Shown: positions 3,661-40,660 of the stretch, piece by piece
Layout of the letters: every line of letters begins with the position of its first letter
Position numbering within the stretch: position 1 is the stretch's first letter
Virus record (IMG/VR): IMGVR_UViG_3300021963_004660
Span: 1-50,155 of that record
DNA: 50,155 nt
Origin: a virus
Direction: 5' to 3' (one strand)
The notes under the pieces: model-generated
Databases searched by the model: none
Seen by the model: the letters and a program-made list of their open reading frames with translations, nothing else
Told to the model about the DNA's origin: nothing
Made by a program: the position numbers and the translations under genes

Positions 3661-3886
3661 AATTCTGACACAGAAAGAATTTGAAGCAGAGATTAAAAAA
3701 ATTCAGAAAAACAAGTATCCAATCACAATGATTGATGCTGTTTTAGAATTTTGTTCAGAGAGAAATCTTGAAGTTGAAACTGCGGCATCTTTAATCACAC
3801 CTCGAATGAAATCTGCTATTGAAGGCGAGGCTATGAAATTAAAGATGATTGCACAAAAAGCTAGATTAACATTTGAGGAAGATTAA
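3650..3886 (+). CDS. 33: Late-promoter transcription coactivator, gp33-like
   Basis: A 78-aa protein resembling the T4-type late-transcription coactivator gp33, which bridges RNA polymerase, the late sigma gp55 and the sliding clamp gp45. Seen: a helical core of the type ITMIDAVLEFCSERNLEVE followed by LITPRMKSAIEGEAMKLKM, the conserved pattern of the Trans_coact family; it ends with the acidic-aromatic tail LTFEED. T4 gp33 is longer (112 aa). The context is strong: T4 has the order 33-59-32, and here gp59 and gp32 follow, with a halogenase interposed. The TAATG overlap couples it to the halogenase. Its presence agrees with TATAAATA-type motifs across this window. Confidence 0.78.
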   Translation: MNLKILTQKEFEAEIKKIQKNKYPITMIDAVLEFCSERNLEVETAASLITPRMKSAIEGEAMKLKMIAQKARLTFEED

Positions 3887-5364
3887 TGAAGAAAGTTTTT
3901 ATTGTCGGTGGTGGAACAGCAGGCTGGTTGGCCGCATTGATGTTAAATAAATCCTTTCCAAATTTGCAAGTTGAGTTAATAGAAAGTGCCGAGATAGGAA
4001 TTCTCGGCGCCGGAGAATCAACACTATTCAATTTTAAATCGGAACTACGTAATTTGGGTATTGATGAATTCGATTTCATCAGAAACACAAAGGCTACGTT
4101 TAAAATGGGTTCTCGATATGATGAATGGAATGGTGATTCAGATTTTCATTACAGCACTACGCACCCTTGGCATGGCGATATCAATTGTGAATCTTATGGC
4201 GGAAACATAGAAGATTATCACACATATCTTTTTGCGAATGATATTGATATCAAAACAAGAGGAATGTATAAAATTGCATTGAACAATAAATCGCCATTCA
4301 TTTTACGTAATGGTAAAGTTGAAAAGATCAATGATTTCGCTTTACACATTAATGCTAGACTGACAGCAAAATATTTTAGACAAATTGCTGAAAGTCGAGG
4401 TGTTATTAGACACGAAGGAAAAGTTGTCGAAATTATAGGCGATGAAATTATAACTGGAATTCGTGATAATAGTGGAAGAGTACACACATTTGATTTTGTG
4501 TTTGATTGCTCTGGATTTGCTAGACTTATTATAGGAAAACACTACAATTCAAAATGGATAGACTACACAAAACATTTTAAAGTTGATTCTGCAATACCAT
4601 TCTTCATAAACAATGTTGGTGAAGAAATTCCTCCATATTCTAGATCAACAGCAATGAACTATGGATGGATGTTTAAAATACCAACACAAGATAGATATGG
4701 ATCAGGATATATTTTTGATAGTACAAAAATTGATGCTGAACAAGCTAAAACTGAGTTGATAAACAAGGTTGGGCATGATATCGAAATTCTGAATCATTTT
4801 AAATTTAAAGCTGGTCATTATGATGAAGTGTACAAAGGAAACTGTATTGCATTTTGTTTATCTGGTGGTTTCTTAGAACCCATGACGGCAAGCAATATTT
4901 CTAGTATGATATCGCAATTCAACATTTTGGATTCAAATTTCATAACAAATCACAATGATAATTCATTAAAGAAAAAGTTTAACGAATTTACTAAAGAGTT
5001 GTATGCTGGATATAGCAAATGGATATTCTTACACTACACTAGTAAAAGAACTGGAACTGAATTTTGGGACTCTCTCAAAAATGACGAATCGTATCCCATC
5101 GGCTATAAAAAAATGATGCAAGATCATATTATAAATGGCGGATTTAACGTGGGAGACTTGACAAAACATATGTTTATACCTTCAGATAAAATCATATCAG
5201 TTTTTCAAGCATATGATTTATACAAAGAACAGGCAAAACAAAAATGCATGAAAGATAATTTGAATGAGAAGTACAAAAAAATTGATGAGATGATAGTTAA
5301 GAACACAGAAAATTTATTGTCGTATTCTATCAGTCACCGAGACTTTTTGGATAATTACTTATGA
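3886..5364 (+). CDS. Flavin-dependent halogenase (tryptophan-halogenase family)
   Basis: A 492-aa FADH2-dependent halogenase. Seen: FAD-binding GGGTAGW (8-14); FKMGSRYDEW with K73, the position of the catalytic lysine (PrnA K79) that forms the haloamine/hypohalous intermediate; CSGFAR (208-213); the family WxWxIP motif as WMFKIP (261-266), with Phe replacing the second Trp; and GGFLEP with E331, equivalent to the second catalytic residue. All key residues are present, so activity is likely. Known: cyanophage VirX1 is a related viral halogenase with a preference for iodide. It sits between gp33 and gp59, overlapping both by a few bases, so it is co-translated with replication/late-transcription genes. 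The substrate is unknown; a separate flavin reductase would be needed. Confidence 0.88.
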   Translation: MKKVFIVGGGTAGWLAALMLNKSFPNLQVELIESAEIGILGAGESTLFNFKSELRNLGIDEFDFIRNTKATFKMGSRYDEWNGDSDFHYSTTHPWHGDINCESYGGNIEDYHTYLFANDIDIKTRGMYKIALNNKSPFILRNGKVEKINDFALHINARLTAKYFRQIAESRGVIRHEGKVVEIIGDEIITGIRDNSGRVHTFDFVFDCSGFARLIIGKHYNSKWIDYTKHFKVDSAIPFFINNVGEEIPPYSRSTAMNYGWMFKIPTQDRYGSGYIFDSTKIDAEQAKTELINKVGHDIEILNHFKFKAGHYDEVYKGNCIAFCLSGGFLEPMTASNISSMISQFNILDSNFITNHNDNSLKKKFNEFTKELYAGYSKWIFLHYTSKRTGTEFWDSLKNDESYPIGYKKMMQDHIINGGFNVGDLTKHMFIPSDKIISVFQAYDLYKEQAKQKCMKDNLNEKYKKIDEMIVKNTENLLSYSISHRDFLDNYL

Positions 5365-32030: not shown

Positions 32031-33365
32031 ATGACAATCAACACAGTAGTCTTAGCGAATACGTTTAACGAGTTTAGAACAACCGTTAATGAAGTCATTG
32101 ATGCCGTTAATGCGGTATCTGGTGGTTCGGGCGTTATCAACGCAACCACACTAATCGGTGGAACAGTTTCTGCAAATAACTTGACTTCGGGCAGAATTAC
32201 ACTTGCTACTTCTGGTGGACAGTTAGTAGATGATTCCGCACTTACATACAATTCGACAACCAATGTATTAACACTAGCTGGAACAACAGATTCATCTTCA
32301 ATTTCTGATGGTACTTTAGTAGTTTCTGGTGGTGTGGGTATTGCTAAACAACTTCATGTTGGTGGAAATACTGATATCAGCGGAACCCTAACTGTTTCCG
32401 GCGACTTGCTTGTTACTGGTAATACAATTACATTCTCCGCAAATAATCTTTTGCTCGAAGACACATTCATATATCTAAATCACGGCAGTACGATTTCAAA
32501 TCCAGACTTAGGTTTTGCTGGTAATTATAATGATGGAACTTATCGTCATACTGGTTTGTTCCGTGATGCAACGGATAATAAATGGAAATTCTTTAAGAAT
32601 TATACTCCAGAGCCAACAGACCCAATAGATACAAGCAATGCAACGTTCGCATATGCAGACTTGGTTGTTCATGGACTTGAAGCAAACAATAATATTTCAG
32701 TTGCGACTGGAAAAGGATATCAAGTCAACGGAACTGAAGTTTTAAATGCTACAACTTTAGGTTCTGGTGTTGTCACATCGTCACTTACATCGGTTGGAAC
32801 AATTGGCACTGGTGTTTGGCAAGGCACAATTATCAATCCAACTTATGGTGGCACTGGTGTTAACAACGGCTCTAAGACTATTACTCTTGGTGGCAACTTA
32901 ACAACATCTGGCGCATACAATACTACAGTAACTGTAGGCGCAAACACCAGCGTAACATTACCTGCATCAGGAACATTGGTTGGCTCTAATGATACTGGCA
33001 CAGTTACAAACGCAATGTTGGCTGGTTCTATTGCAAATGCTAAACTTGTAAACAGCAGTCTAACAGTTGGTAACACTAGCATTAGTTTAGGTGGAACATC
33101 TACGACTTTAACTGGACTCTCAAGCATAACGTCCACAAATATAAATTTGACAACGTTAAATGCTTCCGGTAACGTAGTATTTTCAAGCACCGGCGCATTA
33201 AAAATTCCATCGGGAACTACAGCAGAGAGTAGTTCATACACCACAGTAGGTATGGTTCGATTTAACACGGAAACTGATGCATTAGAAGTTTATAAGTCTA
33301 CTGGTTGGGCTTCAGCGGGTGGTGGATCGTCTACCGTAAAGTTATATTACTACGGAAGTTTTTGA
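32031..33365 (+). CDS. Tail-fibre-type structural protein
   Basis: A 444-aa beta-repeat protein. Seen: FNEFRTTVNEVIDAVN, a helical N-terminal trimer-like start; VVSGGVGIAKQLHVGGNTDI and SGTLTVSGDLLVTGNTITFS, repeats common in phage fibres and large-phage structural proteins; LEDTFIYLNHGSTISNPDLG; and a C-terminal half of VGTIGTGVWQGTIINPTYGG and LPASGTLVGSNDTGTVTNAM repeats ending in VGMVRFNTETDALEVYKSTG, a typical fibre tip ending. It likely forms a trimeric short or long fibre, with the small genes downstream supplying its tip. A possible TATAAATA lies upstream inside the previous gene. Confidence 0.75.
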   Translation: MTINTVVLANTFNEFRTTVNEVIDAVNAVSGGSGVINATTLIGGTVSANNLTSGRITLATSGGQLVDDSALTYNSTTNVLTLAGTTDSSSISDGTLVVSGGVGIAKQLHVGGNTDISGTLTVSGDLLVTGNTITFSANNLLLEDTFIYLNHGSTISNPDLGFAGNYNDGTYRHTGLFRDATDNKWKFFKNYTPEPTDPIDTSNATFAYADLVVHGLEANNNISVATGKGYQVNGTEVLNATTLGSGVVTSSLTSVGTIGTGVWQGTIINPTYGGTGVNNGSKTITLGGNLTTSGAYNTTVTVGANTSVTLPASGTLVGSNDTGTVTNAMLAGSIANAKLVNSSLTVGNTSISLGGTSTTLTGLSSITSTNINLTTLNASGNVVFSSTGALKIPSGTTAESSSYTTVGMVRFNTETDALEVYKSTGWASAGGGSSTVKLYYYGSF

Positions 33366-33401: not shown

Positions 33402-33716
33402 ATGGCATCAGGAATTTTAGCAAAATCAGATCCGACAGGAGCAACAGAAACGACAGTATATACTGCACCATCTGGAAAAACTACTAGTTGTACAATTTCA
33501 GTTTGTAATAGAAGCACAAGTGACGCATCAAAAATTAGAATTGGATTGACAGACCTTTCTGTACTAACTGCAAATAGTTATATCGAATATGAAGCCGCTA
33601 TCCCTCCTACTGGAGTTTTAGAAAGATCGGCTATAGTATTGTTGGCAGGTCAAAAAATTATTGTTAGACCTTCAACATCAGACCTTTCGGTTGTTGTTTT
33701 TGGTGTAGAGGAGTAA
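33402..33716 (+). CDS. Small beta-sandwich virion protein
   Basis: A 104-aa protein with an all-beta pattern: TTVYTAPSGKTTSCTISVCN, an IRIGLTDLS strand, YIEYEAAIPPTGVLERSAIV and GQKIIVRPSTSDLSVVVFGV. The 'YTAP-G-x-T-T-x-x-x-x-V-x-N-R-x' start and the 'G-x-I-x-V-x-S-x-x-x-x-V-V-x-G' end are those of small phage tail or fibre decoration proteins. It lies under its own late promoter at the fibre locus. Function inferred only as a fibre or tail accessory. Confidence 0.6.
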   Translation: MASGILAKSDPTGATETTVYTAPSGKTTSCTISVCNRSTSDASKIRIGLTDLSVLTANSYIEYEAAIPPTGVLERSAIVLLAGQKIIVRPSTSDLSVVVFGVEE

Positions 33717-34167: not shown

Positions 34168-35124
34168 ATGGGAAGATATGTTTCGATTCCGATAGAATCG
34201 GCAGTTTATTATGGTATACGAGATGTTAAACCAGGATATGGCACTGGAGGATTCCGTTTTTATGGTATTTCAGGTACATTTACTGTTCCATCTGGTGTTA
34301 ACGAAGTTCGTGTAACTGTTCTTGGTGGCGGTGGTTGTGGTTCTGGCATTAATAATAGCGGAGCGTCTAGAACAACCGGTCACGGTGGTGGTGGCGGAGG
34401 GTATGTCGTAGCAACAGTTCCCGTCACATCCGGATGCGTTTGTAACGTAGGAGTTGGATCAGCCAACGGAGGAAGTTCTTGTTTTGGAACTGCCGTTTAT
34501 GCATATGGCGGATGCAATGCTCAAGCATTTTTCTGTTCTTGCTGTTTTTCTGGAGGAAATTTTTGCGTTTGTTCGGGAACATGTATTATTGGCTGGTGTG
34601 GTAATAAAGGATGTCCTGGATCATGTGGTAATGGAGGAACTGGTAATTTCAGCTATGGAACAGGTCCAGGCGGTGCATCTGGAAGTCCAGCAGGCGGAAA
34701 TTGCTTAGGACCTTTCCCTGGAGTATCTGGATCTGACATTTATAACTGTAGAGGTTTTAACGGTGAAGATGCAACAGAATCAGACTTAGCGTCTAAATTC
34801 GGAAATACAATCAGATGGCCAGGAGAAGCATTACTAGGAACTTCTAGAACCGCAACTGTAATTGCTGGTACTGCGGCAGGCTATCCTGCTGTTGCGTATT
34901 GTGTTAGTGCGTTTGGTGGTGGTAGCAATCATTGCTACTGCTGTGGAACCGGTACATGCGGATATGCGGCCGCCGGTTATGGTGGAGGTCAGGCTGGTGA
35001 AGTGAGAACATGTTACTGCTATAATGATTATGGATATGGCACATGTCAATGTTGGCAAGGTGCTGGTTGTTACTTGTCAGTTCGTGGATGTGCAGGAAGT
35101 GGATTTGTTGTAGTGGAATACTAA
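34168..35124 (+). CDS. Gly/Cys-rich adhesin-like tail-tip protein
   Basis: A 318-aa protein with 27 cysteines by my count (about 8.5%). Seen: GTFTVPSGVNEVRVTVLGGG, the start of the Gly-rich fibre-tip domain, then GHGGGGGGYVVATVPV and Cys-dense stretches FFCSCCFSGGNFCVCSGTC, NHCYCCGTGTC and TCYCYNDYGYGTCQC, ending AGSGFVVVEY. Poly-Gly runs recall gp38-type adhesins, whose Gly loops pack around receptor-binding loops. The cysteines sit in what look like loops and might bind metal or form disulfides after release. Placement at the end of the fibre locus argues for receptor recognition. No similar Cys load appears elsewhere in the window apart from the two next genes. Confidence 0.7.
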   Translation: MGRYVSIPIESAVYYGIRDVKPGYGTGGFRFYGISGTFTVPSGVNEVRVTVLGGGGCGSGINNSGASRTTGHGGGGGGYVVATVPVTSGCVCNVGVGSANGGSSCFGTAVYAYGGCNAQAFFCSCCFSGGNFCVCSGTCIIGWCGNKGCPGSCGNGGTGNFSYGTGPGGASGSPAGGNCLGPFPGVSGSDIYNCRGFNGEDATESDLASKFGNTIRWPGEALLGTSRTATVIAGTAAGYPAVAYCVSAFGGGSNHCYCCGTGTCGYAAAGYGGGQAGEVRTCYCYNDYGYGTCQCWQGAGCYLSVRGCAGSGFVVVEY

Positions 35125-35125
35125 A

Positions 35126-35440
35126 ATGGCAAAAAGATATACCATAAATGATATTAGTGGTGTTAGAGAATCATATCGTGCAAATCCATCAACAACAGCA
35201 GGTGTAGGGCAAGTTGTTTTTGCCCTATATACTGCTGGAACTCAAACATTGATGGGGCAATGCACCTCTGGATCAAATCTAATTCCTTGGGGGATTAGAT
35301 GTAGTTTCGTATGCGGACAGCAAAGTGCTTGTTCTACTTCAGCATGTACTACTAATTCATTTTCTTTTGGGCAAGGAACTTATGTTGCATTAGGTTCCGT
35401 TGGAGATTGTGGTGCAACTCTTTGGAGAAGGATTTCCTAA
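35126..35440 (+). CDS. Cys-containing small tail-tip protein, paralogue A
   Basis: A 104-aa protein with six Cys: KRYTINDISGVRESYR, then a QVVFALYTAGTQTLMGQCTS strand pair, SNLIPWGIRCSFVCGQQSAC and the end GTYVALGSVGDCGATLWRRI. It is clearly paralogous to the next gene (INDI-G-x-R-x-SYR-NPS, GTQ-LMG, SGSNLIP-G-RC, and an identical last 20 residues). It begins 1 nt after the adhesin. A tail-tip or adhesin-partner role is inferred from position and Cys content. Confidence 0.65.
   Translation: MAKRYTINDISGVRESYRANPSTTAGVGQVVFALYTAGTQTLMGQCTSGSNLIPWGIRCSFVCGQQSACSTSACTTNSFSFGQGTYVALGSVGDCGATLWRRIS
35374..35430 (+). repeat. 57-bp perfect direct repeat, copy 1
   Basis: Encodes the C-terminal part of paralogue A (GTYVALGSVGDCGATLWRR). 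All 57 bases are identical to 35743-35799, although the rest of the two genes has diverged, so recent gene conversion or strong constraint is indicated. Confidence 0.9.
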
Positions 35441-35806
35441 ATGAAAGAAGAAAACTGGAGACAAGCCGTTGATGCTGGCGCTCTTGTACTAGGAAAAAAA
35501 CGTTTTAGTATAAACGACATAGCTGGTTGGAGAGATAGTTATCGTGGAAATCCTAGCTCTGGTTCCTCAGGTGCAGGACAACTTGTGTTTGCACAATACA
35601 CTGGAGGAACGCAAGTCCTAATGGGAATGCAAACATCTGGATCAAATTTGATTCCAGCCGGAGTAAGATGCTGTATGTCTCCCGGTAATTCAAGTGCCTG
35701 CACGGGTTCATCGTGTGTTGCTTGTGGATTTACTATGGGTACAGGAACTTATGTTGCATTAGGTTCCGTTGGAGATTGTGGTGCAACTCTTTGGAGAAGA
35801 ATATAA
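35441..35806 (+). CDS. Cys-containing small tail-tip protein, paralogue B
   Basis: A 121-aa paralogue of the preceding protein, with a 17-residue N-terminal extension (MKEENWRQAVDAGALVLGKK region) and six Cys (RCCMSPGNSSACTGSSCVAC and GDCG). It abuts paralogue A with no spacer. Shared core: FSINDIAGWRDSYRGNPSSG, GTQVLMGMQTSGSNLIPAG, and the same last 20 residues. A tandem duplication is the simplest origin. Function as paralogue A: possibly receptor-recognition accessory. Confidence 0.65.
   Translation: MKEENWRQAVDAGALVLGKKRFSINDIAGWRDSYRGNPSSGSSGAGQLVFAQYTGGTQVLMGMQTSGSNLIPAGVRCCMSPGNSSACTGSSCVACGFTMGTGTYVALGSVGDCGATLWRRI
35743..35799 (+). repeat. 57-bp perfect direct repeat, copy 2
   Basis: Second copy, ending 7 bases before the stop-codon end of paralogue B. 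See copy 1 at 35374. Confidence 0.9.
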
Positions 35807-35884: not shown

Positions 35885-36838
35885 ATGACAAATGATGAGA
35901 GAACAGTTTTCGTCATTGATGGCGGCGCAGGACGTGCCGTAACATCAATCCCCGCACTTTTAAAGTACCACTTAAAAAATCCACAAGACGATTTTAAGAT
36001 TTGCATCTATGGATGGGACACATTGTTTTGGGGCATACCAGAACTTCAAGATAGAGTTTTCAACATCGAAAACAAAGGCGTATTTGAAAATATATTTTTA
36101 AACGCAACTAGAGTTATCACTCCAGAGCCTTACAGACTTCCCGCATACTACACACAGAAGAAAAATTTAGTAGAAGCATTTGACGCAATCATCAATGATA
36201 CTAACGATCATTCTGATCTTCCGAATTTAAAATTTGTGTTAAACAAGGGAGAAGAAATCAATGCATTGAATGCTATGGGTCAAGCTATTCAACAAGATGA
36301 ATCTAGAAAAGATAAATTAAATATCGTGATTCAGCCTTGGGGAAGTACAGCAAAGAAAGTTGGCAACTACATAGTTGACGAATCGTCTAGAAGTCTAACC
36401 AACGAATCATATTTAAAAATAGTCAAACATTTTTCAGAAAAATATAACCTATACTATTTTGGTGACAGAGGTTTATGTCCCGAAGACGATACTTATACAT
36501 TGAAGTATGATGGCGACTTAAGATTTTGGCTTTCATTAATTGATTCTGCTGACTACTTCATTGGATGTGATTCTGTCGGACAGCATTTTGCCAAAGGTTT
36601 AAATAAACCAGGAACTGTGATTTTAGGAAGCACGTTTGCAGAAAATATTTCTTATCCTGAATTTTTCAATATTTTCGAAAAAGCAGGTGCAAAAAAATAT
36701 TCTCCATTAAGGATCAACGGTATCGATTCACACTTAGCAGATAGAATCAATGATACTAGAATGGACTTCAGCGATGAAGAACTTGATAAATTAATCAAAT
36801 CAATTGAAACACACATTAAAGCAACGGTGAGGAAATAA
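35885..36838 (+). CDS. GT9-like glycosyltransferase (heptosyltransferase family)
   Basis: A 317-aa GT-B-type enzyme. Seen: GGAGRAVTSIPALLKYHL (13-30), the GT9 donor/acceptor loop position; a short IQPWGST (149-154) at the start of the second domain; and LIDSADYFIGCDSVGQHFAK with LNKPGTVILGST (218-250), the GT9 nucleotide-sugar site with D229, S230 and H234. Known: GT9 enzymes such as WaaC/WaaF add ADP-heptose to LPS core. A GmhB-like heptose phosphatase a few genes away is suggestive of heptose use, but the donor is not proven. First gene behind the sigma70 promoter; overlaps the carbamoyltransferase start by 1 nt. Confidence 0.75.
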   Translation: MTNDERTVFVIDGGAGRAVTSIPALLKYHLKNPQDDFKICIYGWDTLFWGIPELQDRVFNIENKGVFENIFLNATRVITPEPYRLPAYYTQKKNLVEAFDAIINDTNDHSDLPNLKFVLNKGEEINALNAMGQAIQQDESRKDKLNIVIQPWGSTAKKVGNYIVDESSRSLTNESYLKIVKHFSEKYNLYYFGDRGLCPEDDTYTLKYDGDLRFWLSLIDSADYFIGCDSVGQHFAKGLNKPGTVILGSTFAENISYPEFFNIFEKAGAKKYSPLRINGIDSHLADRINDTRMDFSDEELDKLIKSIETHIKATVRK

Positions 36839-38580
36839 TGAGTCATAATATTTTAGCAATTAGTCCAGGACATAACGGATCGATTTGTCTTCTCGTGGAT
36901 GGAAAAATTGAAGTTTACATTGAAGAAGAACGCTTGACGAGGCTCAAATATGATGCAAATCCACTAAGAAGTATTTTCTATGTCTTAGACAACTATCACG
37001 TAGATACATTAATTTTATGTGGAACTGGTGAAAGCATGTATCCCAAATTAACATGGTCTGGTGAAGAATTATTCACATCGACTGTTAGACGATATAACCC
37101 TAATGTAAAAACTTTTGGTTTTTGGGAATACCATCATCTAGGTCATGCTACTGGTGCATTTTATAATTCAGGATTTGATACTGCGGCAGCAATTGTCGTT
37201 GATGGTGCAGGTTCTATAGTTGATTTAAAATTACCACTTCCTTTCGCAACGTTTGGATATGAAACCGAAACTATTTTTAAATGCTCATATCCAAATGATC
37301 TTGAATTGATGTATAAATCGATAGGTCAAAACGGAGGAATGAAAGTATACTCAGAAGACAAAAAATTTAAATATAGTGGTACTGTTAATATATGCAAGAC
37401 GTATGAAGCGGCAACACAGTATGCAGGATTTCATCCAATTGAGGCAGGTAAATTAATGGGTCTAGCTTCTTATGGTGGTCCAAATGAAGATATTCCCCCA
37501 TTATTTTATGGTGAAGATGCGAACAAAAATTTATATTACGCTCAGTATCCTGCTGGTGGACTGATTAATATCAATTCATTCCCTAAACTGCGATTGAAAG
37601 CTATGGGTGATGAAATCAATCCATTGGGTGCTGATATTAAAGATATTGTAAAATATCCAGAAGACTTAAAACTGGTTCAAGATTTTGCATGGAAAACTCA
37701 ACAAGAAACACAAAAACTTGTGGGTGATCTAATTCAGAAAGCTATTGATCTTACTGGAGAAAAAAATATTGTAATCTCTGGCGGCTATGGATTGAATTGC
37801 GTTGCAAACTACTATTATAAAAAACGCTTTCCAGAAATCAATTTGTATTGTGATGCAATTGCACACGATGGAGGAACTTCAATCGGACTAGCAAAGTTTG
37901 CATGGTATCAACATTGCAAAGAAGAAAACCTTCCTTTCGAAAAACAACCATTGAAAACATTATATCTTGGTATCGATAGAAACGATGAAATTGATGAGGA
38001 AAAATATTCTGATGAATTTAACATCAAAACTGTTACTGCCGCAGATGTTGCACAATTGATTGCTGATAAAAACATTGTTTCTATGTTCAATGGTCGTGCA
38101 GAAGCTGGACCAAGAGCATTGGGCAATCGTTCAATATTGTTTGACCCAAGAGCAAAAGACGGAAAACATATTGTCAATACAGTTAAAGGTCGTGAATGGT
38201 TCAGACCATTTGCAGGTACAGTATTGAAAGAGAAAATGAATAATTGGTTTGATATGGCTGGACTCGAAGAGTCTCCATTTATGATGTATGCAGTTGATGT
38301 TCTGCCAGAAAAATTAGAACAAGTGCCTTGCATTACGCACGTAGATAATACATGTAGAATTCAAACAGTCACTCAAGAACAAAACAAATATTATTATGAA
38401 TTGATTGCAGAATTTGAAAAGATAACTGGTGTTCCAATTTTGTTTAACACTAGTTTTAATCTAGCTGGCGATCCGTTAGTAGAAACTTTTGCTGACGCAA
38501 TCAAAACACTAAGAAATAGCAAATTAAATTATTTGTACATTCCATCTAAATCAATTTTATTGGAGAAAAAAGATGCCTGA
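36838..38580 (+). CDS. O-carbamoyltransferase (NodU/CmcH/TobZ family)
   Basis: A 580-aa two-domain enzyme. Seen: the Kae1-like N-domain with AISPGHNGSICLLVDGKIEV and IEEERLTRLK; the metal-site region EYHHLGHATGAF with H99 and H103, and VVDGAG with D122; GLASYGG; and ISGGYGLNCVANY. The C-domain has MFNGRAEAGPRALGNRSILF and NTVKGREWFRPFAGTVL, the family signature, and PILFNTSFNLAGDPLVET. Known: these enzymes make carbamoyl-adenylate from carbamoyl phosphate and ATP, then carbamoylate a sugar or antibiotic hydroxyl. The acceptor is probably a glycan, given its glycosyltransferase neighbour. It overlaps the cupin gene by 8 nt. Confidence 0.93.
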   Translation: MSHNILAISPGHNGSICLLVDGKIEVYIEEERLTRLKYDANPLRSIFYVLDNYHVDTLILCGTGESMYPKLTWSGEELFTSTVRRYNPNVKTFGFWEYHHLGHATGAFYNSGFDTAAAIVVDGAGSIVDLKLPLPFATFGYETETIFKCSYPNDLELMYKSIGQNGGMKVYSEDKKFKYSGTVNICKTYEAATQYAGFHPIEAGKLMGLASYGGPNEDIPPLFYGEDANKNLYYAQYPAGGLININSFPKLRLKAMGDEINPLGADIKDIVKYPEDLKLVQDFAWKTQQETQKLVGDLIQKAIDLTGEKNIVISGGYGLNCVANYYYKKRFPEINLYCDAIAHDGGTSIGLAKFAWYQHCKEENLPFEKQPLKTLYLGIDRNDEIDEEKYSDEFNIKTVTAADVAQLIADKNIVSMFNGRAEAGPRALGNRSILFDPRAKDGKHIVNTVKGREWFRPFAGTVLKEKMNNWFDMAGLEESPFMMYAVDVLPEKLEQVPCITHVDNTCRIQTVTQEQNKYYYELIAEFEKITGVPILFNTSFNLAGDPLVETFADAIKTLRNSKLNYLYIPSKSILLEKKDA

Positions 38581-39010
38581 TATTATTGGAGATAGCATTT
38601 CTGACGAACTTGGTTATTTTGGTAACATTTGGGTAAGATCACATAAGTTAAAAAAGATTGGCGATATGAATGGAGGTGGTCACCTTCATCCATTCGACCA
38701 TATAACTATGCTTCATAAAGGGCGTGTTCGTGTTGATGTTACCGATCCAGAAACTGGAACCGAAAGAAGTAAAGAGTTTACTGCACCAACATTCATTGTC
38801 ATTAGAAAAGAATTGAAGCACAAGATTACCGCACTTGAAGATGACGTTCAATACTATTGTGTTTTTGCATTACGTGACGTTGATGGTGAAGTTACAGACA
38901 TTTATTCTGGCAAAAATGATCCATACAATACTGTTCCTGATGATTACTGGATTAAAAAGAAGCTAGAAAAACTAGACGCATCTACCACACACGAAGATGA
39001 TAAAGGTTAA
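38573..39010 (+). CDS. Cupin-domain protein
   Basis: A 145-aa single-domain cupin. Seen: GGGHLHPFDHITMLHKGRVR with H37, H39 and H43 as first-motif metal ligands, GRVRVDVTDPETGTE strand, and FIVIRKELKHKITALEDDV with H83 as second-motif ligand. Both motifs are intact, so a metal-binding enzyme is likely (epimerase, dioxygenase or isomerase type). The overlap with the carbamoyltransferase and the oxygenase (38997-39010) places it in the same operon. The reaction is unknown. Confidence 0.75.
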   Translation: MPDIIGDSISDELGYFGNIWVRSHKLKKIGDMNGGGHLHPFDHITMLHKGRVRVDVTDPETGTERSKEFTAPTFIVIRKELKHKITALEDDVQYYCVFALRDVDGEVTDIYSGKNDPYNTVPDDYWIKKKLEKLDASTTHEDDKG

Positions 39011-39503
39011 TCTACCAAATACATGGGGTTATGAAAATTTTATTAGTGATGATGAGCAATCTGTATTAATAGATTTTGCAAATTACATTCGCCCAAGACT
39101 CAGAAATAATGGGCTTGGACGTTTTTATCACGACCATATAAAAGTTAGATATAACGTTCCGAAAGAATTTGATGATGTCAAAGCACGTATCATAGAAACA
39201 GAAAAGTTTGCAAACTTTATACTCGATCCTATTTTTGGTGACTTCATAAGTTTCAACGAAAACGGCGGTGCTATACATAAGCACAAAGACAACAATGAAC
39301 CTGGTTATGTTCACACCAGATACAATTTAATTTGTAGTATGCCTGAAATTGGAGGTAATCCGATTTATGAAGATGATGTTATTGACGTAAAAGAGAAAAT
39401 GCTTTGGCGATGTGAAGCTGGTTTGTACAACCATTCTTCAGTTGAAGTGCAAGGAAATAAACCTAGAATTAACATATCGTTTGGATTTCAATTAAAAAAA
39501 TGA
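38997..39503 (+). CDS. 2-oxoglutarate/Fe(II) oxygenase-like protein
   Basis: A 168-aa protein with the Fe(II)/2OG facial triad: H96 and D98 in GAIHKHKDNN, and distal H146 in GLYNHSSVEV, with R157 in NKPRINISFGF as the 2-oxoglutarate anchor. Core strands VHTRYNLICSMPEIGGNPIY match phage P4H-like oxygenases common in marine T4-like genomes. Small relatives hydroxylate proteins, nucleic acids or small molecules; the target here is unknown. It overlaps genes on both sides, indicating co-expression. Confidence 0.78.
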   Translation: MIKVNLPNTWGYENFISDDEQSVLIDFANYIRPRLRNNGLGRFYHDHIKVRYNVPKEFDDVKARIIETEKFANFILDPIFGDFISFNENGGAIHKHKDNNEPGYVHTRYNLICSMPEIGGNPIYEDDVIDVKEKMLWRCEAGLYNHSSVEVQGNKPRINISFGFQLKK

Positions 39504-40090
39504 AAACTGGATTTAGTCACGAAACGTTATTTGAATATGACGAATCAAAAATACGACAGTATCTAACTAATGCAAACAATTCAGGTTTGCTATGGAATGA
39601 TGTGCCCGAAAGAAAAAACTTGTATGCACAAGAGCAAACTGATATTACACTTCTATACAATCTTGCAGACAAAACAAACGCAGTCTTCAATAAATTTTAT
39701 ATAAACGAAAAGATTATTGAGGAGTCTGGAGTAGATGAACTATTCGGAAAAATATCAAAGTTGACAGGAAGAGTATTGGGGCGTGCAATGTTTATCAAAC
39801 TGCCACCAAAAAAATCTATAGCAAAACACATAGACTCTGGGCACCATTTACAAAACTGCGAAAGAATTCATCTTCCTATCATAACAGACGAACACGTAAA
39901 ATTTATTATTGATGATGTTGTTTATCCTATGCCAGCCGGTGTAGTTTGTAGAATAAACAATAATGTTCCACACTCAGTAGATAACAATTCAAATAATTAT
40001 AGGGTGCATCTAGTTATGGATTTTGTAGTGAAAAATGATCCACACTATGACGCACCACAAGAAGAATTAAATAGATTTTGCGAATTCTAA
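39500..40090 (+). CDS. Aspartyl/asparaginyl beta-hydroxylase-like oxygenase
   Basis: A 196-aa protein of the Asp/Asn-hydroxylase fold. Seen: H110-I-D112 in IAKHIDSGHH, R122 and H124 in CERIHLPIITDE, H158 in NNNVPHSVDN, and R168-V-H170 in NYRVHLVMDFVV. In this family the H-x-R/H-x-P block and the late His and Arg bind iron and 2-oxoglutarate, so the site appears intact (H110, D112, H158, R168). Together with the previous gene it makes two unrelated 2OG-type oxygenases in tandem. Substrate unknown. Its 3' end overlaps the convergent phosphatase by 24 nt, with no terminator between. Confidence 0.72.
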   Translation: MKTGFSHETLFEYDESKIRQYLTNANNSGLLWNDVPERKNLYAQEQTDITLLYNLADKTNAVFNKFYINEKIIEESGVDELFGKISKLTGRVLGRAMFIKLPPKKSIAKHIDSGHHLQNCERIHLPIITDEHVKFIIDDVVYPMPAGVVCRINNNVPHSVDNNSNNYRVHLVMDFVVKNDPHYDAPQEELNRFCEF

Positions 40091-40660
40091 TAGATTGTTA
40101 AACACTAGAGTTTTTTTCTTCAATTCACGATTCGCAAATGTGTTGAGTTTTTCTAGTGTTTCTTTTCCATGACCGGTAAGAACAAGTATAGGCTTAGCGC
40201 CAGCTTTGTCTGCGGCTTTTAAATCACTAATTTTATCTCCAACGTACCAGCCTTTTTTCCAATCAATTTTTAATTCGTCTTTAGCACGTTTGAACATTCC
40301 AATATTTGGCTTTGCGTAGATATCGTCTTTTAGCGAAGACATTGAATAGTACAGTCCATCTATAGACATTATTCCTGCTTGACCAAAAACTTCTAATAGG
40401 TGCTTATGCACATTCTCGACTTGTTGTTGAGTTTGAAGTCCTTTTGCAATGCCGCCTTGATTTGTAATGATTACAATTTTGTGACCTCTGTCTCTTAGCA
40501 TTTTAATTGCAGAAAGACTTCCTGATATTGGAACAGCTTGCTTTGGGTCTGTTATGTAATCTCCAACATCTTCAATTATTGTTCCATCACGATCTAATCC
40601 AATCACTGGAAGAATATTATTTTGCGTCTTGACTATCGCATCTAAATTAAATCTTCCCAT
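40067..40660 (-). CDS. HAD phosphatase, GmhB-like (heptose bisphosphatase type)
   Basis: A 197-aa HAD-IIIA phosphatase. Seen: motif I LDRDGTIIED (D23 nucleophile, D25 acid), motif II IVIITNQGGIAKG, motif III Lys in DIYAKPNIGMF, motif IV YVGDKISDLKAADKAG. The arrangement matches GmhB and histidinol-phosphatase. Odd: the Cys/His zinc loop of many GmhB proteins is absent (YYSMSSLKDDIYAKP has none), so it is a zinc-free variant. Known role: removes the 7-phosphate of heptose-1,7-bisphosphate in ADP-heptose synthesis. It may pair with the GT9-like transferase. A preceding 59-aa gene overlaps it by 14 nt. Confidence 0.8.
   Translation of the reverse strand: MGRFNLDAIVKTQNNILPVIGLDRDGTIIEDVGDYITDPKQAVPISGSLSAIKMLRDRGHKIVIITNQGGIAKGLQTQQQVENVHKHLLEVFGQAGIMSIDGLYYSMSSLKDDIYAKPNIGMFKRAKDELKIDWKKGWYVGDKISDLKAADKAGAKPILVLTGHGKETLEKLNTFANRELKKKTLVFNNLLEFAKSI

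Follow-up and report, generated by a model that had tools for sequence, protein, structure and literature searches.

The window analysed here is a 50-kb (50,155-nucleotide) IMG/VR piece of a T4-like phage with genes for gp59, gp32, baseplate, fibre, neck and sheath proteins. Its sheath protein shares 43-45% identity with its nearest counterparts, from Ochrobactrum phage OC and Pelagibacter phages. The fibre locus closes with three tightly packed genes for cysteine-rich proteins, which come after a fibre protein and two small cysteine-poor proteins and are themselves followed by the gene for p317 and that for a NodU-type carbamoyltransferase (Table 1).

Table 1. Genes of the fibre locus and the adjoining module in the window
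Feature	Position	Strand	Evidence
Fibre protein, 444 aa, 0 Cys	32031..33365	+	Cys count, PHROG
Tail-fibre domain protein, 104 aa, Cys-poor	33402..33716	+	PHROG tail fibre 1.5e-9
Cys-poor protein between fibre and adhesin, 147 aa	33723..34166	+	Synteny
Predicted Gly/Cys-rich tail adhesin, 318 aa, divergent Gly_rich_2 (PF21722) type	34168..35124	+	Pfam E 0.012 (below cut-off), PHROG, profile
Cys-rich small tail protein A, 104 aa	35126..35440	+	6 Cys; weak PHROG tail fibre match E 0.0075
Cys-rich small tail protein B, 121 aa	35441..35806	+	Paralogue of A with N-terminal extension
p317, GT9 heptosyltransferase-like (phrog_8954)	35885..36838	+	Conserved GGxGR, Q-P-x-G, DxxxxH
NodU-type O-carbamoyltransferase	36838..38580	+	Pfam 1.4e-59, PHROG 6e-157
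Small cupin-like protein, putative accessory	38573..39010	+	Weak DUF1971 match E 0.087; synteny
Conserved protein, 168 aa, oxygenase-like by inspection only	38997..39503	+	Synteny
Aspartyl/asparaginyl beta-hydroxylase-like oxygenase	39500..40090	+	PF05118 E 1.2e-12
GmhB-like HAD phosphatase (heptose bisphosphate phosphatase family)	40067..40660	-	NCBIfam NF006506 E 1.9e-38, under curated cut-off

S-CAM1 and P-SSM2 encode homologues of the 104-aa tail-fibre domain protein a few genes upstream of p317, and the 147-aa protein that follows it in the window may, judging by its position and size, be chaperone-like. Both Carbam_trans domains of Pfam are found in the carbamoyltransferase (N-terminal 1.6e-18, C-terminal 1.4e-59). 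The cupin-like gene is kept in four relatives of the locus (L002, L004, L008 and L010), and a family search with the 168-aa protein gave no convincing match. Elsewhere in the window, positions 3886-5364 encode a tryptophan-halogenase family protein (PF04820, 1.6e-89); the tryptophan-halogenase-type gene of HTVC008M adjoins its terminase. A second surface-sugar cluster may lie at 38-2906, the left end of the window, where there are genes of sugar epimerase, C-methyltransferase and GT2-like type.

Cysteine content of the adhesin tract and its relatives

The 318-aa protein contains 27 cysteines (8.5%) and 77 glycines (24%), and its two small neighbours contain six cysteines each (5.8% of A, 5.0% of B), which agrees with the counts and the glycine-rich character given by an earlier, sequence-only reading of this DNA. 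From the remaining proteins of the window, with 82 cysteines in 14,713 residues (0.56%), only 1.8, 0.6 and 0.7 cysteines would be expected in the 318-, 104- and 121-aa proteins, respectively (binomial P = 3e-23, 3e-5 and 7e-5). The same reading had called other virion proteins cysteine-poor, and the other virion proteins of the window indeed have 0-2% cysteine. Part, but not all, of the excess in the 318-aa protein is accounted for by base composition: the three genes are rich in G and T, from which alone about 14, 4 and 4 cysteines are predicted. Six CxC and two CC pairs occur in this protein, as had been noticed, together with no CxxC and only two histidines in 318 residues. Proteins A and B, described previously as cysteine-rich paralogues, form a paralogous pair (66% identity) to which the 318-aa protein does not belong.

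That an adhesin-type protein ends the fibre locus is borne out by PHROG tail fibre matches (1.5e-7 and 1.4e-3) and by a profile match to Gly_rich_2. The homology is claimed from profile comparison and not from the Pfam cut-off, since the 318-aa protein scores 16.1 bits against PF21722, where the cut-off is 24.3, and its relatives score no better. Compared as a profile with Gly_rich_2-type proteins, it reaches an hhalign probability of 94% (E ~1e-7) over 59-60 columns, and the partners over the Pfam cut-off come from pelagiphages and cyanophages, HTVC008M and S-CAM1 among them. By this comparison, the protein is predicted to be a divergent Gly_rich_2-type tail adhesin. Its family is profile-similar to the Gly_rich_2 tail proteins of HTVC008M, Mosig and Melnitz, and the gp38-like adhesins of S16 and T2 resemble it in composition and position, being likewise glycine-rich and closing the fibre locus. 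Unlike the window adhesin, those of these proteins that were examined have 0-4 cysteines and no p317 alongside; 0-4 cysteines are also found in the pelagiphage and Methylophilales-phage members of Gly_rich_2. In the cyanophages S-CAM1, S-CAM3, P-SSM2 and S-SSM7, two or three members with 8-12% cysteine are clustered together, with a p317 homologue a few genes downstream; Gly_rich_2 members at other sites in the P-SSM2 and S-CAM1 genomes contain one or two cysteines. Mean cysteine content of Gly_rich_2-type proteins is 9.9% beside p317, compared with 0.5% otherwise.

The cysteine-richness of the tract is real, as four independent IMG/VR relatives (L002, L004, L008 and L010, at 81, 60, 50 and 42% identity) retain it together with the gene order, which runs from the 104-aa fibre domain and 147-aa proteins through the large Gly/Cys protein, small A and small B to p317 and the carbamoyltransferase. 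The large protein has 26-36 cysteines in these relatives and the small proteins 5-15 (6-15 in A); the two upstream neighbours are cysteine-poor there too. The amount of cysteine is maintained while most cysteine positions shift. The closest relative, at 81% identity, keeps 26 of the 27 cysteines of the large protein, and in a five-relative alignment, 8 cysteine columns are invariant and 71 hold at least one cysteine, with long-distance conservation of cysteine about that of the average residue. Within single genomes, segments of A and B can be nearly identical: 97.6% at the DNA level in L002, with 24 of 24 synonymous positions the same, and 96% in L010; other segments are 52-77% identical. In the window, too, parts of B are homogenised with A. 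Because this near-identity includes synonymous sites and lies beside divergent segments, it indicates segmental gene conversion between the two paralogues.

Searches of isolate phages by tblastn with the window proteins gave no matches, in part from low-complexity filtering, and solved structures searched with the adhesins gave only spurious glycine-rich or unrelated matches. AlphaFold2 models are of low confidence, with a pLDDT of 29 for the 318-aa protein (5 sequences) and 35 for the 121-aa protein (10 sequences).

The main idea of the sequence-only reading was a disulfide-rich or metal-bound adhesin, locked by oxidation or binding a metal-loaded receptor; p317 and the carbamoyltransferase would then be bystanders. 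Both the cysteine-richness of the 318-aa protein and its CxC and CC pairs fit such a design, and metal-binding tail tips exist in other phages, as in lambda gpL and T4 gp37. As the principal explanation it is nevertheless quite unlikely. So few of the cysteine columns are invariant, cysteine number is odd in 35 of 81 cysteine-rich proteins, and no metal-site pattern recurs, the window protein itself being poor in histidine and free of CxxC. Cysteine-richness also follows the neighbouring GT9-like gene across unrelated folds, as described below.

Coupling of p317 to cysteine-rich tail proteins

A p317 profile matches at least 574 contig stretches in IMG/VR, and the best 80 of these, forming 55 clusters at 85% identity, served as the test set for coupling. 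A protein was counted as cysteine-rich at 6 cysteines in 60 aa, a threshold fixed in advance of the large test. The refined count leaves out YkgJ-like CxxCxxCC proteins, an exclusion made after that test; the first count, which included them, was inflated (61 of 80). Small proteins of this kind lie near p317 in L243, L250, L251, L256, L258 and S-CAM1 (153123-153596).

A cysteine-rich ORF stands upstream of p317 in 36 of the 46 clusters with at least three upstream genes, and downstream in 7 of 48. By gene position, 37 of 149 proteins at -1 to -3 are cysteine-rich versus 8 of 266 at +1 to +6 (Fisher 1.9e-11), the loci in these counts being partly dependent on each other. Ten of the 46 testable clusters have no upstream protein above the threshold, and in several of these ten a cysteine-rich protein is slightly more distant or has fewer cysteines. 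After masking of cysteine, the cysteine-rich proteins at p317 loci fall into 33 clusters without detectable similarity, among them Gly_rich_2, S74 fibre, phage tail tip, RCC1 and Lcl_C families and unknowns, and therefore the coupling does not reflect descent of one protein. An Ala-rich coiled-coil tail protein is also among the folds enriched in cysteine beside p317. The cysteine-enriched RCC1-repeat proteins (L243 and L255) and Lcl_C-like domains (L239, L249 and L260) are further folds with the same enrichment. L199, L204, L207 and L210 have giant proteins in the tail region, 1100-1400 aa long and with 108-148 cysteines; that of L199 has no Pfam or PHROG family match.

Individual genomes show the same pairing. 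The p317 neighbours of Vibrio phages D505 and SBP1, both annotated as tail proteins, have 41 cysteines each, and that of Aeromonas phage HJ05 has 23. AG-345-O18, a single-cell marine virus, carries unrelated proteins of 758 aa (73 cysteines) and 290 aa (31 cysteines) beside p317 and a carbamoyltransferase. All five MAG contigs with p317, two of which are near-duplicates, also encode a cysteine-rich protein. In a reverse test with the cysteine-rich protein of S-SSM7, homologues occurred in 21 phage records, all of them from phages with p317; the same test with the giant protein of L199 returned no match but itself.

Absence is likewise shared. Cysteine-rich tail proteins are present in 5 of 5 T4-like genomes with p317 and in 0 of 10 complete ones without it (P = 3e-4), and homologous Vibrio tail proteins have 41, 41 and 39 cysteines in phages with p317 versus 4, 2, 4 and 9 in those without, or 10 versus 0 in the aligned stretch. 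Among 41 p317-free T4-like IMG/VR loci, 37 of them with fibre-like proteins in view, there is a single cysteine-rich ORF (Fisher 3e-14 against the 36 of 46 p317 clusters); these loci were anchored on the neck protein gp13 and viewed 6-10 kb upstream, a span that may miss fibre genes. Across unrelated tail proteins, p317 and cysteine-richness are coupled, and the two are absent together. The sequence-only reading had suggested a search for a cysteine pattern linked to the host; the link is instead to p317. The p317-free cyanophages Syn9, S-PM2, S-CRM01, P-SSM4 and P-HM2 have no Gly/Cys-rich tail proteins.

Disulfide or metal chemistry alone is insufficient as an account because it leaves this coupling, by position (P ~1e-11) and by presence and absence, unexplained. 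Cysteine-richness and p317 might also be hitch-hikers of a transferable cassette or of aquatic habitat, with no functional link: most named phages carrying the module are aquatic, and p317 and the carbamoyltransferase travel together in 43 of 55 loci. This is highly improbable, as the cysteine-rich genes are non-homologous between loci and so form no single cassette, and as the p317-free T4-like loci, most of them with fibre-like proteins, are nearly devoid of cysteine-rich ORFs. The carbamoyltransferase was considered as the main partner of the cysteine-rich proteins and rejected: coupling persists in its absence (7 of 10 loci), and extra copies in P-SSM2, S-CAM1 and S-SSM7 have no cysteine-rich neighbour.

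The p317 family and its module partners

By sequence, p317 is a GT9-like protein. Pfam PF01075 (GT9) matches 12 of 22 members, at best with 4.5e-6, and the S-CAM1 member stands at the cut-off (22.0 bits); the window member alone has no Pfam match. The best PDB match of the family profile is the ADP-heptose LPS heptosyltransferase II (E 0.0088), and GT9 profile matches are weak outside the C-terminal motif. The D-S/T-x-x-x-H motif and the threonine that follows are highly conserved in the family (D229 in 65 of 65, H234 in 63 of 65 and T250 in 64 of 65 members). The window p317 has three cysteines, and C228 is the sole nearly invariant cysteine of the family. With the GT9 LPS heptosyltransferases WaaC, WaaF and RfaQ (PF01075), p317 has the D-S/T-x-x-x-H...G-S/P-T motif in common, but it is very divergent from them, nearly phage-only, marked by a 'GCDSxGQH' signature and adjacent to tail genes.

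The module often extends to sugar genes: 24 of the 55 loci have a GmhB-like gene, and 16 have HldE/HldD-like genes. Genes of ADP-heptose type follow the module in S-CAM1, P-SSM2, S-CAM3 and Sf-FS3, and directly downstream in S-CAM1 and P-SSM2 are kinase, nucleotidyltransferase, phosphoheptose isomerase and epimerase genes. This gene context points to ADP-heptose as the likely donor of p317.

These enzymes might instead act on the host. In that case p317, the carbamoyltransferase and the heptose genes would alter host LPS against superinfection, cysteine-richness would be an unrelated fibre trait, and the linkage to fibre genes would arise since both concern the cell surface. LPS is the classical target of GT9 enzymes, which p317 resembles. 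Furthermore, the host-recognition cluster described in pelagi- and cyanomyophages is the same T4-like region, has glycosyltransferases among the fibre genes, and has had its pelagimyophage glycosyltransferases read as LPS modifiers, in a main text that makes no mention of cysteine (PMC7029224). This alternative is unlikely, as it gives no reason for the cysteine-richness of 33 unrelated clusters or for the low cysteine of p317-free homologues. Moreover, heptose is absent from marine Synechococcus LPS (PMC4515613; infected cells not covered), from which we infer that such hosts may not supply ADP-heptose.

A protein target for a heptosyltransferase has precedent in TibC, a dedicated enzyme that hyper-glycosylates the adhesin TibA from ADP-heptose (PMC4358343). 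Like the role proposed for p317, that of the BAHT enzymes (TibC/TibA, AAH/AIDA-I) is dedicated heptosylation of a surface adhesin. BAHTs modify serine and are built with an iron finger of four cysteines and an N-terminal beta-barrel, whereas p317 is a protein of about 317 aa whose partner is a cysteine-rich phage tail protein. Membership of p317 in the BAHT family was rejected, since the iron finger is missing and the protein has three cysteines in all.

Proposed modification of the tail proteins

Cysteine enrichment in unrelated folds, drifting cysteine positions and a GT9-like neighbour would all three be explained by cysteine-directed modification by p317. The cysteines of the 318-aa protein and of A and B would act chiefly as sites to which p317, the product of the next gene, covalently attaches a modification within the infected cell. 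Most likely, p317 would move heptose from ADP-heptose onto cysteine thiols (S-linked), and the NodU-type carbamoyltransferase would cap the sugar. Where the host makes no ADP-heptose, as is probable for marine picocyanobacteria, the phage would bring genes of the pathway, and the released virion would carry a heavily sugar-coated adhesin. The coat is likely to set receptor specificity or to shield the tip. That p317 acts on the tail protein, in all likelihood through S-linked heptosylation with carbamoyl capping, is a tentative proposal to which we give close to an even chance; the tail protein as substrate, cysteine as acceptor, heptose as sugar and the function of the coat are inferred from the genomic pattern. 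No acceptor sequon was found around the cysteines of the cysteine-rich proteins at p317 loci, where contexts are weakly biased, and CC and CxC pairs would crowd glycosylation sites. Given these pairs, disulfides or metal binding could exist besides the modification.

Alternatively, p317 could place its sugar on other residues (Ser, Thr, Tyr or Asn), with cysteine disulfides holding sugar-coated hypervariable loops once the virion is released into oxic water. This would retain the coupling to p317, follow the O-linked adhesin heptosylation of TibC (PMC4358343) and suit a partial disulfide core, with which the eight invariant cysteines and the CC and CxC pairs are compatible; the near-complete retention of cysteines in the closest relative also counts in its favour. 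It leaves unexplained why cysteine, rather than Ser or Thr, climbs with p317 in unrelated folds, and the frequent odd cysteine numbers and strong turnover of cysteine positions speak against it. We consider it somewhat unlikely.

Cysteine as a sugar acceptor is known from the glycocins, in which a cysteine thiol takes its sugar from a dedicated, linked glycosyltransferase, as in sublancin with SunS and in glycocin F. A cysteine acceptor and a linked enzyme are likewise proposed for the p317 system. Glycocins are small bacteriocins modified at one or two sites by enzymes of GT2 type, whereas the p317 system would combine a GT9-like enzyme with tail proteins of 6-148 cysteines each.

Extended beyond the window, and with slightly less confidence than for the locus itself, the proposal is that aquatic phages of varied morphotypes may hyper-S-glycosylate tail adhesins at tens to more than 100 cysteines by means of a GT9-like p317, with carbamoyl capping and with phage-supplied ADP-heptose where the host lacks it. 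Such a system could be grafted onto any tail-fibre fold by the seeding of cysteines. No description of the pairing of p317 with cysteine-rich tail proteins appeared in the titles and abstracts returned by searches of the open literature, a scope outside which most subscription papers and all bioRxiv preprints fall.

If the proposal is true, it would give a function to a large, nearly phage-only enzyme family and to the 'hypothetical' cysteine-rich tail proteins of reference cyanophages such as P-SSM2. It would also allow the ADP-heptose and carbamoyltransferase genes of marine phages to be read otherwise than as LPS-modification genes, and would be a rare instance of extensive cysteine-linked glycosylation. 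Receptor binding and shielding would then depend on a sugar coat that is unseen by sequence-based host prediction. Even if the proposed chemistry is wrong, cysteine-rich tail proteins with unrelated folds are associated with a GT9-like enzyme, an unexplained regularity open to direct testing in cultured phages.
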